Below are positions 21,872 through 32,081 of a DNA stretch of 35,965 bases, one piece after another (position 1 is the stretch's first letter; the number at the start of each line of letters is the position of its first letter). Under the pieces are notes generated by a model, which saw nothing but the letters and a program-made list of their open reading frames with translations, was not told where the DNA came from and did not search any database. The stretch lies in NCBI GenBank assembly GCA_022767445.1, contig JALENJ010000026.1, positions 1 through 35,965 of the forward strand, in the 5' to 3' direction. Made by a program: the position numbers and the translations under genes. This DNA is from Erysipelotrichaceae bacterium. GTDB taxonomy: Bacteria > Bacillota_I > Bacilli_A > Erysipelotrichales > Erysipelotrichaceae.

Positions 21872-21893
21872 AGGAGCTAAGGCTCCTTTTTTT
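21872..21893 (+). terminator. Intrinsic terminator of prfA-prmC
   Basis: AGGAGC (21872-21877) pairs with GCTCCT (21882-21887) around TAAG, followed by a run of seven T counting the last stem base. Confidence 0.88.
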
Positions 21894-21898
21894 CATTT

Positions 21899-21927
21899 TT
21901 AACAATTTATACAGAACATAGTACAAT
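21899..21927 (+). promoter_or_regulatory. Promoter of the adenylation-decarboxylase operon
   Basis: TTAACA (21899-21904), a 17-bp spacer and TACAAT (21922-21927), followed by a TAGGAG SD before ATG 21949. Confidence 0.7.
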
Positions 21928-21948: not shown

Positions 21949-23472
21949 ATGATCAAAAATGTTTTAGAGTGGTTAGAAAATTCTTACAAGAAGAAGCCAA
22001 ATGATATAGCAGTTACAGATGAAAGTAATGAAATGACCTATGCACAACTTGTACATAGTGCAAAGGTAATTGCTACTGCATTGAGTCAATATATCTCACC
22101 AAGACAACCGGTAGCGATGTACATGGAAAAAAGTACAACAACATTAGCGGCGATGTATGGAACAGTATATGCTGGAGGATTCTATTCACTCATCGATACA
22201 CGACAACCAATCGGTAGAATTGAAAAGATAATCGAAGTCTTAAATCCAAATGTTGTCTTAAGTAATCAACAATTCTATCAAGAAGCCAAGGAGAAACTTG
22301 GTGATTCTGTTCGTATCATCAAAGTAGAAGATATTCTAGCAAATGATACAATCGATGAAGACAGGCTTGCATGTATTCGTAAACAAGCTGTTAGTACAGA
22401 TCCTTTGTATGTTAACTTTACCAGTGGTTCTACAGGTGTTCCAAAAGGAGTTGTAGTAGGACATGGATCTGTCATTGATTTCATACCAGAGTTTGTAAAG
22501 ATGTCAGGAATCAATGAGAAAGACCATATCGCAAACCAAGCTCCATTTGACTTTGATGTATCGGTAAAAGATATCTACAGCAGTATCTATGTAGGCGCAA
22601 GAGTAGAATTAATTCCACGTGAATTCTTCAGTAACCCAACCCACTTAATGGATTTTTTGTGTGACCATGAAGTTACCGTATTGACATGGGCAGTCAGTGC
22701 AATGTGCTTTGTATCAATTATGAATGGATTTGGATATCGCAATCCAGACAAGATTCGTCTAGTTATGTTTAGTGGTGAAGTGATGCCAATCAAACATCTA
22801 AATATCTGGATGAAGAACTGTCCACAAGCAAGCTTTATCAATCTATATGGTCCTACAGAGATTACATGTAACTGTACCTATTATCGCTTAGAGAATAGAG
22901 TCTATGAAAGCGATGAGATTATACCGATTGGACATGCATTCAATAATGAGAAAGTATTCTTACTATCAGAAGATGATACAGAAGTCACAAATACCAATGA
23001 AAGTGGAGAAATCTGTGTAGCTGGTGAATGTCTAGCACTTGGCTATTATCACGATGAAGCCAAAACAAATTCTGTATTCGTACAGAATCCACTGAACCAT
23101 GCATACTATGAACGTATCTATCGCACTGGAGATCTTGCCAAATACAACGATCAAGGAGAGCTTGTATATATTGGACGTAAAGACTTCCAGATTAAGCACC
23201 TTGGGCATCGCATTGAGCTAGGTGAGGTTGAAACACTTGTACAAGGTCGCACTGGTATCATGCGTGCATGTGCAATCTACGATCACAACAAGAAACGTAT
23301 ATACTTATTCTGGGTAGGTGATCGCGAACAAAAAGAATTACACCAAGAACTAAAAGAAATCATGCCAAGCTACATGGTACCAAGCAAACTCGTACAACTG
23401 GAAGAGATGCCAATGACCAAGAATGGCAAGATGGATCGAGCAGTACTAAAGAAGATGGAAGGAATCGACTAA
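21949..23472 (+). CDS. DltA-like amino acid adenylation enzyme (stand-alone)
   Basis: 507 aa, the DltA length. The adenylate-forming core motifs are visible: FTSGSTGVPKGV (about 153-164), FDFDVSVKD (the Asp typical of alpha-amino-acid substrates), NLYGPTEIT, YRTGDLA, GRKDFQIKHLGHRIELGEVE, and the C-terminal NGKMDR with catalytic K494. DltA activates D-Ala and loads it on DltC for teichoic acid alanylation. Here dltB, dltC and dltD are absent, and the gene is instead coupled to a decarboxylase (stop TAA overlaps its ATG by one base). It may activate another amino acid for an unidentified carrier. Calling it dltA would go beyond what the context supports. Confidence 0.85.
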   Translation: MIKNVLEWLENSYKKKPNDIAVTDESNEMTYAQLVHSAKVIATALSQYISPRQPVAMYMEKSTTTLAAMYGTVYAGGFYSLIDTRQPIGRIEKIIEVLNPNVVLSNQQFYQEAKEKLGDSVRIIKVEDILANDTIDEDRLACIRKQAVSTDPLYVNFTSGSTGVPKGVVVGHGSVIDFIPEFVKMSGINEKDHIANQAPFDFDVSVKDIYSSIYVGARVELIPREFFSNPTHLMDFLCDHEVTVLTWAVSAMCFVSIMNGFGYRNPDKIRLVMFSGEVMPIKHLNIWMKNCPQASFINLYGPTEITCNCTYYRLENRVYESDEIIPIGHAFNNEKVFLLSEDDTEVTNTNESGEICVAGECLALGYYHDEAKTNSVFVQNPLNHAYYERIYRTGDLAKYNDQGELVYIGRKDFQIKHLGHRIELGEVETLVQGRTGIMRACAIYDHNKKRIYLFWVGDREQKELHQELKEIMPSYMVPSKLVQLEEMPMTKNGKMDRAVLKKMEGID

Positions 23473-24647
23473 TGCAAGAAAAGGAACTAGCGTATATCGC
23501 AAAGAATTATCCAACACCTTGTTTTATCTTCGACTTAGAAGAAGTAACACAACGTGTTAAAAAGATGAGAGAGATTGTAGGTGGTGAATATCATCTATGT
23601 TATTCCATCAAGGCAAATCCTTTCTTGATTCCAACGATGGAAAAAATTACAGACAAGCTAGAGGTATGTAGTCCTGGGGAACTTTCTATCTGTAAACAAC
23701 TTCATGTACAACCAACAAAGATTCTATATTCCGGTGTCAATAAGACAGCAGTTGATGTTGAGGATGCGATGGCATATGGTGTGATTCACTATACTGCAGA
23801 ATCACTACTTCATATGGATATCGTCAACCAAGTAGCAGCTAACCATCATAAAAAAGTTGAAATTCTACCACGTTTAAATGCAGGTAGTCAGTTTGGTATG
23901 TCCAAAGAAGATCTCTTCTCAATTTACGCAAATGAAGAGAAATATCCAAACCTAATCGTCAAGGGTATTCACTACTTTGCGGGTACGCAACGCAAGAAGA
24001 GCGATAAACAAGTAAAAGAGTTAGATATGTTGGTAGAACTCATCAAAGAGATTCAAACAACATTCAACCGTAAGGTTGAACAAATCGAGTATGGACCAGG
24101 TCTATCAGTTCCTCTATTTGAGGGAGAAGACTTCAGTGATACATTAAAACCACTAGAGAACGTACAGGAAAAGTTAAAAGAACTATCACAGGTAGTTGAT
24201 TTAACAATTGAAATGGGTAGATTCTATGCGACATCCTGCGGTACTTACTTAACACGTGCGATGGATTGTAAGTCCAACGAGGGTGTTAACTACTGCATTG
24301 TGGATGGTGGTATGAATCATCTTAACTACTATGGACAAATGATGGGTATGAAGATACCACACATCCAGCACTTACACACATCTCAAAACACAGAAGATAA
24401 GAAATGGTGTTTGTGTGGAAGTCTATGTACAACAGCAGATGTCCTTGTTAGAGAGGTAAACCTACAAGGATTAACACCAGGTGACTACCTTGCGTTTAAC
24501 AACTGCGGTGCCTACTCCGTTACTGAAGGAATCCACTTATTCCTAAGTCGTACGATGCCAATGATTTTATTACGCACTGCAGAAAATGAGTATACAGTTG
24601 CACGATCAATGCAGGAATCTTATCCGATTAACACAATTCAAAATTAG
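23472..24647 (+). CDS. Fold-III PLP-dependent amino acid decarboxylase
   Basis: 391 aa in the LysA/ODC/NspC superfamily (alanine-racemase fold). The PLP Lys is K47 in YSIKANP. EMGRFYATSCGTYL gives the phosphate-binding motif (EPGR-like), and GSLCTTADVL supplies the second-subunit active-site Cys and Asp. NNCGAYSVT is the C-terminal PLP contact. The middle motif reads GIHYFAGTQRK rather than the HIGSQ of DAP decarboxylase. From memory this resembles the BtrK-like group, which acts on carrier-bound substrates, but that is unverified. Its ATG overlaps the stop of the adenylation gene, and GGAAGGA provides the SD. No lysine-pathway genes are nearby, so lysA is doubtful. Confidence 0.85.
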   Translation: MQEKELAYIAKNYPTPCFIFDLEEVTQRVKKMREIVGGEYHLCYSIKANPFLIPTMEKITDKLEVCSPGELSICKQLHVQPTKILYSGVNKTAVDVEDAMAYGVIHYTAESLLHMDIVNQVAANHHKKVEILPRLNAGSQFGMSKEDLFSIYANEEKYPNLIVKGIHYFAGTQRKKSDKQVKELDMLVELIKEIQTTFNRKVEQIEYGPGLSVPLFEGEDFSDTLKPLENVQEKLKELSQVVDLTIEMGRFYATSCGTYLTRAMDCKSNEGVNYCIVDGGMNHLNYYGQMMGMKIPHIQHLHTSQNTEDKKWCLCGSLCTTADVLVREVNLQGLTPGDYLAFNNCGAYSVTEGIHLFLSRTMPMILLRTAENEYTVARSMQESYPINTIQN

Positions 24648-25425: not shown

Positions 25426-25457
25426 AAAACACTTAGTCGATGGGCTAAGTGTTTTTT
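25426..25457. terminator. Terminator at the acpS 3' end
   Basis: AAAACACTTAG (25426-25436) pairs with CTAAGTGTTTT (25445-25455) around an 8-base loop, with A and T runs on the two sides. The acpS stop lies in the right arm. Confidence 0.85.
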
Positions 25458-25753
25458 ACAATGGCGATGGCGATACCTGCATCGTGGGAGATGCTGATTT
25501 CTAAGTCTGGATGATCTTTGATATAGGGTTTACCTGTTGAATCGTTTAGTATGCTGTAGGTGAGGTAGTCTTTATCTTGAGTTGCTTTAAAGATTGCTTC
25601 TTTTGCCGCAAATCTTCCTGCAAAGTATAATATCTTCTGCTTTTGTGTATGTTTCGCACAGTATTCTTTCATTTCTAGTTCTGTTAAAACGTGTGAAATG
25701 ATGGTTTTTTGAGTATCTATGCGGTTTATATCTACGATGTCGATTCCTAACAT
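25445..25753 (-). CDS. acpS: Holo-[acyl-carrier-protein] synthase
   Basis: 102 aa, somewhat shorter than the usual 115-125. MLGIDIVDINRI carries the Mg-binding Asp, and FAGRFAAKEAIFKA carries the Glu/Lys of the phosphopantetheinyl-transferase motif. ISISHDAGIAIAIV ends the fold. It transfers 4'-phosphopantetheine from CoA to a Ser of apo-ACP. The missing residues come from loops between core motifs, so it looks functional. No SD is seen; AATAAT lies 6 bases before the ATG. It is on the opposite strand to its neighbours, 0.8 kb from the adenylation-decarboxylase pair, which would need a PPTase if a carrier protein is involved. Confidence 0.93.
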   Translation of the reverse strand: MLGIDIVDINRIDTQKTIISHVLTELEMKEYCAKHTQKQKILYFAGRFAAKEAIFKATQDKDYLTYSILNDSTGKPYIKDHPDLEISISHDAGIAIAIVKNT

Positions 25754-31553: not shown

Positions 31554-32081
31554 ATGAAGGAATCTTTACAACAACATGATTTTTGGCATCATTATATGTC
31601 CTGTCGCAAGGACTTATATCGTATCCTACAACCACATAATGTCGAAGCAGGAATGATATCAGAGGCGAACTGGGTGATACGTTGCCGGTATCAATCCGGA
31701 GGAGAGATTGGTATACGGGTGAAACCTGGTGATATCTGTTACATCGACTTTGGTCAATCCTATCTCAATGAGATGGGATATCAACACTTTGGACTTGTCA
31801 TGTCCGTATGCGCTAAGAAGGCACTTGTCGTTCCGATGACATCCAATGAACACACATACCAAAAGGCATATGATGCAATCTACCATCCTGAGGGTAAGTA
31901 TCATTTAATGAAGATAGGACTCGTAGATGGTTTAAATAAACCATCAGTGCTATTTCTCAATGACATACGTTTTATCAATACCGCAAGAGTCATTGATATC
32001 AAAGCTCATATATCACCCACATCACCGATGTTTAAAGAAGTACAGAAGAGAATGTTGAAGGTAATGTTTAGCACAGAATAA
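31554..32081 (+). CDS. MazF/PemK-fold protein without antitoxin
   Basis: 175 aa. A charged N-terminal region of about 55 aa precedes a MazF-like beta-barrel: VKPGDICYIDFG (about 56-67), GYQHFGLVMSV (75-85), ALVVPMTSN (90-98), and later KPSVLFLNDIRFINTARV. In MazF toxins the third element usually reads GxxxxRP with a catalytic Arg; here it is YQHFG (H78-F79). The Thr of PMTSN remains. No antitoxin ORF precedes or follows. It may be a weak or non-toxic RNA-binding relative. The SD AGGGAGA is clear. It sits where this lineage places it ahead of tilS; I do not know its function. Confidence 0.65.
   Translation: MKESLQQHDFWHHYMSCRKDLYRILQPHNVEAGMISEANWVIRCRYQSGGEIGIRVKPGDICYIDFGQSYLNEMGYQHFGLVMSVCAKKALVVPMTSNEHTYQKAYDAIYHPEGKYHLMKIGLVDGLNKPSVLFLNDIRFINTARVIDIKAHISPTSPMFKEVQKRMLKVMFSTE

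Follow-up and report, generated by a model that had tools for sequence, protein, structure and literature searches.

A probable Dlt-like surface-modification system with a built-in decarboxylase, apparently widespread in gut bacteria

Two adjoining genes in a 35,965-nucleotide stretch of an Erysipelotrichaceae genome (hereafter the window) encode an adenylation enzyme and a fold-III PLP decarboxylase that probably belong to a surface-modification system of Dlt-like, MBOAT-SGNH type in which decarboxylation is built in. Five proteins make up the predicted system: the adenylation enzyme, the decarboxylase, a DltC-like carrier, an MBOAT protein with a fused acyl-shuttle tyrosine motif and an SGNH transferase. 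In our preferred reading, to which we assign a probability of about 0.62, the pair supplies this system's cytoplasmic half, and glutamate or aspartate loaded through its side chain is decarboxylated on the carrier and delivered as GABA or beta-alanine to a surface polymer. The parts are of known kinds and their combination, which is apparently widespread in gut bacteria, seems new as far as the open-access literature goes, in which we found no account of Dlt-like operons that include a decarboxylase; since most subscription papers lay outside the search, its novelty is unproven.

The genes for the DltA-like/NRPS A-domain enzyme (positions 21949-23472, plus strand, 507 aa) and the BtrK-like decarboxylase (23472-24647, plus strand, 391 aa, with Orn/DAP/Arg decarboxylase domains) are both complete and overlap by one base in the sequence TAATG, as described in the initial annotation. 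The former matches the amino-acid adenylation model TIGR01733 with 333.6 bits, above the cut-off. The residues named in that annotation are real (K494 in the adenylation enzyme; K47, EMGR, GSLCTTAD and GTQ in the decarboxylase), and both the catalytic K494 and K47 are invariant among orthologues. The promoter and terminator that had been ascribed to the pair were not confirmed. A weak promoter-like site, TTAACA-17-TACAAT, is located upstream of the adenylation gene (21899-21927, plus strand, 10 of 12 consensus matches), and such sites are not enriched in the window (19 observed versus 20.0 in shuffles). The sole good plus-strand terminator (21872-21887) is located upstream of the pair and ends prmC, and the terminator scan of the window saw none directly after 24647. 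The pair is flanked by prfA-prmC on one side and by a small membrane ORF, acpS, a sortase gene and a gene for an LCP-family protein on the other. The 4'-phosphopantetheinyl transferase gene acpS, rightly noted as lying near the pair (25445-25753, minus strand; PF01648, E = 3e-13), presumably encodes the enzyme that primes the carrier, since only one PP-binding carrier was detected in the genome and acpS adjoins the operon in the loci of two relatives (L036 and L045).

The remaining components are encoded elsewhere in the same genome (1.91 Mb in 74 contigs, 97% complete), in which the window enzymes are the only AMP-binding protein and the only decarboxylase of this fold-III kind. The single detectable PP-binding carrier (L002:6502-6729; 75 aa, with a DSF motif) is encoded on a different contig, C35, between the genes for a DltB-like MBOAT protein (L002:6750-8291) and an SGNH-type protein (L002:5540-6496), the latter with a GDSESS motif and a weak GDSL match below cut-off (PF13472, E = 1.6e-4). 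The statement in the initial annotation that a carrier and DltBCD are missing is thus true of the window and false of the genome, and the supposed orphan pair is one half of a five-gene system. We rejected an assembly artefact as the cause of the split: the closest relative, G059, is assembled in a single contig and is split likewise, with the pair at 178.6-181.3 kb (adenylation enzyme 81% and decarboxylase 87% identical to those of the window) and the MBOAT-carrier-SGNH block at 237.7 kb, about 57 kb away. The separation seen in the genome of the window is therefore biological, and since the five genes do not form one operon there, we infer their joint action in this genome.

In 23 relatives (L036-L058), one uninterrupted cluster holds the genes for the adenylation enzyme, the decarboxylase, the carrier and the MBOAT protein. 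The SGNH gene is also present in 22 of these; in the remaining one, L054, the contig stops at that point. Gene order is variable, the adenylation-decarboxylase-carrier genes being preceded or followed by the MBOAT-SGNH genes in some loci and the order being adenylation-carrier-decarboxylase-MBOAT-SGNH in Ruminococcus, which indicates that the linkage is under selection, beyond inherited order. A profile scan of contigs from about 85,000 species yielded at least 557 loci that encode relatives of the decarboxylase. Among the best 80 of these, some of which stop at contig ends, an adenylation enzyme is encoded nearby in 77, a carrier in 76, an MBOAT protein in 68 and a recognisable SGNH protein in 45. 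These 80 loci span Bacillota, Actinomycetota (Coriobacteriia) and Spirochaetota (Treponema); the system, in hundreds of loci at least, occurs in Lachnospiraceae, Ruminococcaceae, Coriobacteriia, Erysipelotrichaceae and a Treponema. Pairwise distances of the adenylation enzymes and the decarboxylases were correlated (r = 0.78; maximum of 0.12 in 999 permutations), a value to which shared species history contributes part. The decarboxylase lies within the operon in three phyla and co-evolves with the adenylation enzyme. The initial annotation had proposed that the two enzymes activate an amino acid and decarboxylate it, perhaps on a carrier from another locus, to make an amine-bearing surface modification, and this central idea is well supported. 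Clustering of recurrent operon neighbours returned mostly antisense shadow ORFs. In L036, whose contig is shared with L082, a single adenylation-decarboxylase-carrier set is accompanied by two genes for MBOAT proteins and three for SGNH-like proteins around it, which suggests several acceptors for one loaded carrier.

The nearest relative of the decarboxylase in the PDB is BtrK by phmmer, profile search (202.9 bits, versus 187.1 for the next molecule, SbnH), Foldseek (rank 1, E = 1.5e-32) and VIA-align (Z = 41.4, rmsd 2.1 over 381 aligned residues; Z = 40.0 for the next entry), the structure comparisons being based on a predicted model with a mean pLDDT of 93. BtrK converts BtrI-S-glutamate to GABA-S-BtrI by decarboxylation, and the substrates of SbnH, FigC, AcsE and MccE are likewise amino acids with a conjugated side chain, while many other fold-III decarboxylases use free amino acids (PMC7857480). 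The GTQ variant, which had been read as a hint of carrier-bound substrates, fits this relationship by analogy, as BtrK has GTQ as well. In the tree, the operon decarboxylases form one clade (100/99) apart from LysA, and BtrK and SbnH are placed weakly on long branches. All 25 tested operon decarboxylases have a short loop (R[LIK]xxxxQFG or similar; RLNAGSQFGM in the window enzyme) that is about 15 residues longer in BtrK, SbnH and DapDC, and this difference from BtrK could reflect a different substrate. The motif C-[TS]-x-x-D is found in about 100 of 105 operon decarboxylases, with CTTAD in the window enzyme in place of CE(S/T)GD; DapDC has CE-x-x-D, and the Aquifex enzyme CETGD.

We also examined the specificity pocket of the adenylation enzyme, in which D203, V204 and K207 correspond to GrsA positions 235, 236 and 239. 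In GrsA numbering, the full code is D235, V236, K239, T278, M299, S301, L322, C330 and N331, that is, DVKTMSLCN as compared with DLMTLCTVA in the DltA of Bacillus cereus; the pocket sequences used for GrsA and for this DltA agree with the PDB at every letter. The difference is only suggestive of a substrate other than D-alanine. The 98 decarboxylase-linked enzymes fall into two pocket types, DVK....CN (78 enzymes) and IAR....AS (20). Position 239 is basic in all 98 (Lys in 78, Arg in 20), whereas it is Met in B. cereus DltA and Trp in GrsA; position 301 is Ser in all of them, and position 235, the usual anchor of the alpha-amine, is Asp in 78 and Ile in 20. A Lys or Arg beside the substrate points to a dicarboxylic amino acid, which needs such a basic residue, implying that this is the kind of substrate that the enzyme would activate. 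Some glutamate-activating NRPS domains have Lys at position 239, and Arg is found in domains for iso-linked Glu or Asp. The basic residue would permit an acidic substrate and does not tell which carboxyl group is activated.

In 17 relatives the adenylation enzyme has no decarboxylase nearby, and the pocket is of the SM(S/T) type in 10, the DAK type in 5 and the DVK type in 2. Two of the loci, L078 and L079, have a decarboxylase-type pocket and five further decarboxylase-less relatives have Lys239, so the basic residue alone is no sign of decarboxylation. At L078:7488-8186 a gene for a hexapeptide-repeat acyltransferase is located in the decarboxylase's usual place. Some of the DAK-pocket relatives (L065:5620-7897, L071:6074-8317, L072:5396-7708 and L081) represent a sister Dlt-like operon with a DAK..G pocket and an Asp/Glu racemase gene directly upstream of the adenylation gene, and this operon possibly loads D-Asp or D-Glu. 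A second sister operon (L064, L066-L070, L073-L075 and L080) contains the adenylation, carrier, MBOAT and usually SGNH genes, again with no decarboxylase gene. Its enzymes have Ser at the alpha-amine position 235 in an SM(S/T)Y....LDI pocket, from which the substrate is probably no normal alpha-amino acid.

An amino acid loaded by its alpha-carboxyl group leaves nothing for PLP-dependent alpha-decarboxylation, whereas side-chain-loaded Glu or Asp does, which leads to the model of side-chain loading. The adenylation enzyme would load Glu by its gamma-carboxyl or Asp by its beta-carboxyl group onto the phosphopantetheine arm of the carrier, and the BtrK-like decarboxylase would then remove the free alpha-carboxylate, giving gamma-aminobutyryl- or beta-alanyl-S-carrier. 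Such decarboxylation is the chemistry of BtrK. The MBOAT protein would carry the acyl moiety through the membrane and onto its own C-terminal Tyr, from which the SGNH protein would transfer it to teichoic acid or another surface glycopolymer, adding a positive charge. The computation shows the gene complement with its linkage, distribution and co-evolution, the family relations, the conserved basic pocket residue and the shuttle motif; the substrate, its loading through the side chain, the order of steps, the product, the acceptor and the priming of the carrier by AcpS are inferred. GABA thioesters are prone to cyclisation, which disfavours GABA as the product unless transfer is fast. In its fullest form the scheme would be a widespread and so far undescribed class of surface modification in gut bacteria: an acidic amino acid would lose its carboxylate while held on the carrier, and cells would bear ester-linked GABA (or beta-alanine) on their surface polymers, possibly freed as GABA by ester hydrolysis. 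We consider this tentative proposal rather doubtful in its entirety.

The same five genes might also act with the decarboxylase first, so that GABA is made from free Glu, or beta-alanine from free Asp, before the resulting omega-amino acid is loaded by the adenylation enzyme. This order of steps, which we regard as the least improbable of the alternatives, would predict operon linkage equally well and is in line with the use of free amino acids by many fold-III decarboxylases. It agrees less well with the Lys or Arg at position 239 in 98 of 98 enzymes, which fits an extra carboxylate and not a decarboxylated substrate with an ammonium group there, or with the conjugated substrates of the nearest relatives, BtrK and SbnH.

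The C-terminus of the C35 MBOAT protein reads MMYAGF, with Met in place of the first Phe of the FxYxxF motif. Among 84 decarboxylase-linked MBOAT proteins, 56 have strict FxYxxF and a further 22 have Yxx[FLMIV], amounting to 78 of 84, and an SGNH/GDSL partner is encoded with the C35 MBOAT protein in the same layout as in the 22 relatives. In MBOAT-SGNH systems the C-terminal motif takes the acyl group outside the membrane, and those with a fused motif use acyl-CoA and no carrier (PMC12148441). The fused shuttle motif together with a dedicated carrier makes the layout here a hybrid. The operon adjoins capsule-type or surface-polysaccharide genes in L038, a Solobacterium-type relative, and in L114, from the spirochaete Treponema sp. 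CETP13, where the polysaccharide cluster includes a member of the CDP-glycerol:polyglycerophosphate transferase family. These neighbours suggest that the acyl group probably goes to a surface glycopolymer, and to a different one from species to species. The window's genome encodes two sulfatase-fold proteins of LtaS-like size, which matched no NCBIfam model at E = 1e-50. Production of a small secreted NRPS-type metabolite by the pair, the MBOAT-SGNH proteins serving something else, has a precedent in the carrier and BtrK-like decarboxylase of butirosin biosynthesis (PMC7857480); we find it improbable given the linkage to MBOAT-SGNH genes in most loci, the shuttle motif and the surface-polysaccharide genes beside the operon in these two loci.

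Two further schemes would end in alanylation, and we consider both very unlikely. Aspartate might be loaded by its alpha-carboxyl group and lose the beta-carboxyl, giving alanyl-S-carrier and hence alanylation from aspartate. This would yield the group that Dlt normally transfers, and D235 with K239, seen in 78 of 98 enzymes, is the pattern of ordinary alpha-activation of an acidic amino acid; against this, position 235 is Ile in the other 20, and we know of no fold-III enzyme that catalyses beta-decarboxylation. In ordinary D-alanylation, the window enzyme would be DltA, the C35 genes would encode DltB, DltC and DltD, and the decarboxylase would be an unrelated neighbour. A dltBCD-like set with this gene as the only dltA candidate, which according to the initial annotation would speak against a new system, is literally what the genome contains, with its single adenylation enzyme and single carrier, and the DltA family models do match. 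However, the equivalog cut-offs are missed widely by the adenylation enzyme (TIGR01734, 295.9 bits versus 559.85), the MBOAT protein (TIGR04091, 149.5 versus 375) and the carrier (TIGR01688, 22.9 versus 52.35), so that the latter two seem to be distant matches only to their Dlt counterparts. As the decarboxylase moreover travels with the operon in three phyla and co-evolves with the adenylation enzyme, and the pocket reads DVK..CN against DLM..VA in DltA, ordinary D-alanylation does not account for the system. A search with TIGR01734 in 61 genomes of the phylum, mostly very small, recovered no true DltA.

A role of the decarboxylase as the organism's LysA was rejected as hardly credible: it matches TIGR01048 and the genome has no other LysA, but the score of 178.6 bits is 119 bits short of the cut-off of 297.9, CTTAD replaces the CE-x-x-D of LysA, the enzyme does not cluster with LysA in the tree, and DapB_C, found in 11 of 14 control genomes, was not found in this one, so that the DAP pathway, of which DapB was the sole enzyme sought, is probably absent. 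Loading of DAP and its decarboxylation to lysyl-carrier is possible in other species; DapB is absent here.

Among the closest known parallels to the proposed system is Dlt itself (DltA-DltB-DltC-DltD with DltX), which D-alanylates teichoic acids and likewise consists of an adenylation enzyme, a small carrier, an MBOAT protein and an SGNH-type protein that bring a carrier-activated amino acid to a surface polymer. The system described here differs by its conserved decarboxylase, its specificity pocket, the scores of its tested parts below the Dlt equivalog cut-offs and the fusion of the shuttle motif to the MBOAT C-terminus. BtrI/BtrJ/BtrK of the butirosin pathway provide the decarboxylase nearest by sequence and fold, with GTQ and CT-x-x-D in common and a carrier-bound amino acid as the expected substrate. 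BtrJ is an ATP-grasp ligase; here loading would instead be performed by the adenylation enzyme, the decarboxylase loop is shorter, and the link is to membrane acyltransfer and not to antibiotic assembly. The exosortase-A-associated families TIGR03098 and TIGR03099, which we take from their names to be an adenylating ligase and a fold-III decarboxylase, presumably likewise occur with a PP-binding protein in surface-polysaccharide loci. The window proteins fall well below their cut-offs (198.1 bits versus 592.35 and 179.9 versus 478.45), and the definitions of these families include no MBOAT-SGNH proteins, unlike the system here. PatA/PatB and other MBOAT-SGNH acyltransferases share the C-terminal FxYxxF-type motif and the SGNH partner, but use acyl-CoA and no carrier (PMC12148441), in contrast to the dedicated carrier and adenylation enzyme found here.

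Dlt-type D-alanylation governs surface charge, antimicrobial-peptide resistance and host sensing in Gram-positive bacteria. If a parallel Dlt-type system uses an amino acid of its own and decarboxylates it as part of the process, gut bacteria would bear surface amines that have not yet been looked for, and the hitherto unexplained ligase-decarboxylase-carrier genes associated with exosortase A may become interpretable. The key steps are accessible in vitro with three soluble proteins.

Several other features of the genome were observed. The PP-binding search (E <= 10) detected no fatty-acid ACP besides the one carrier even though the genome has acpS, which may reflect a divergent ACP or a gap in the assembly. 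An ORF in the window (31554-32081) has a marginal PemK/MazF-like match (24.0 bits versus a cut-off of 23.1). A second, more distant MBOAT gene (L171:3264-4711) is split over two overlapping frames, possibly by a frameshift or a sequencing error, and is followed by a gene for a membrane-anchored protein. The MBOAT-carrier-SGNH block on C35 is adjoined by genes for a MurE-like ligase, an aspartate racemase and an ATP-grasp protein (L002:359-3825), which are conserved in G059 and perhaps serve the synthesis of a D-Asp peptidoglycan bridge.
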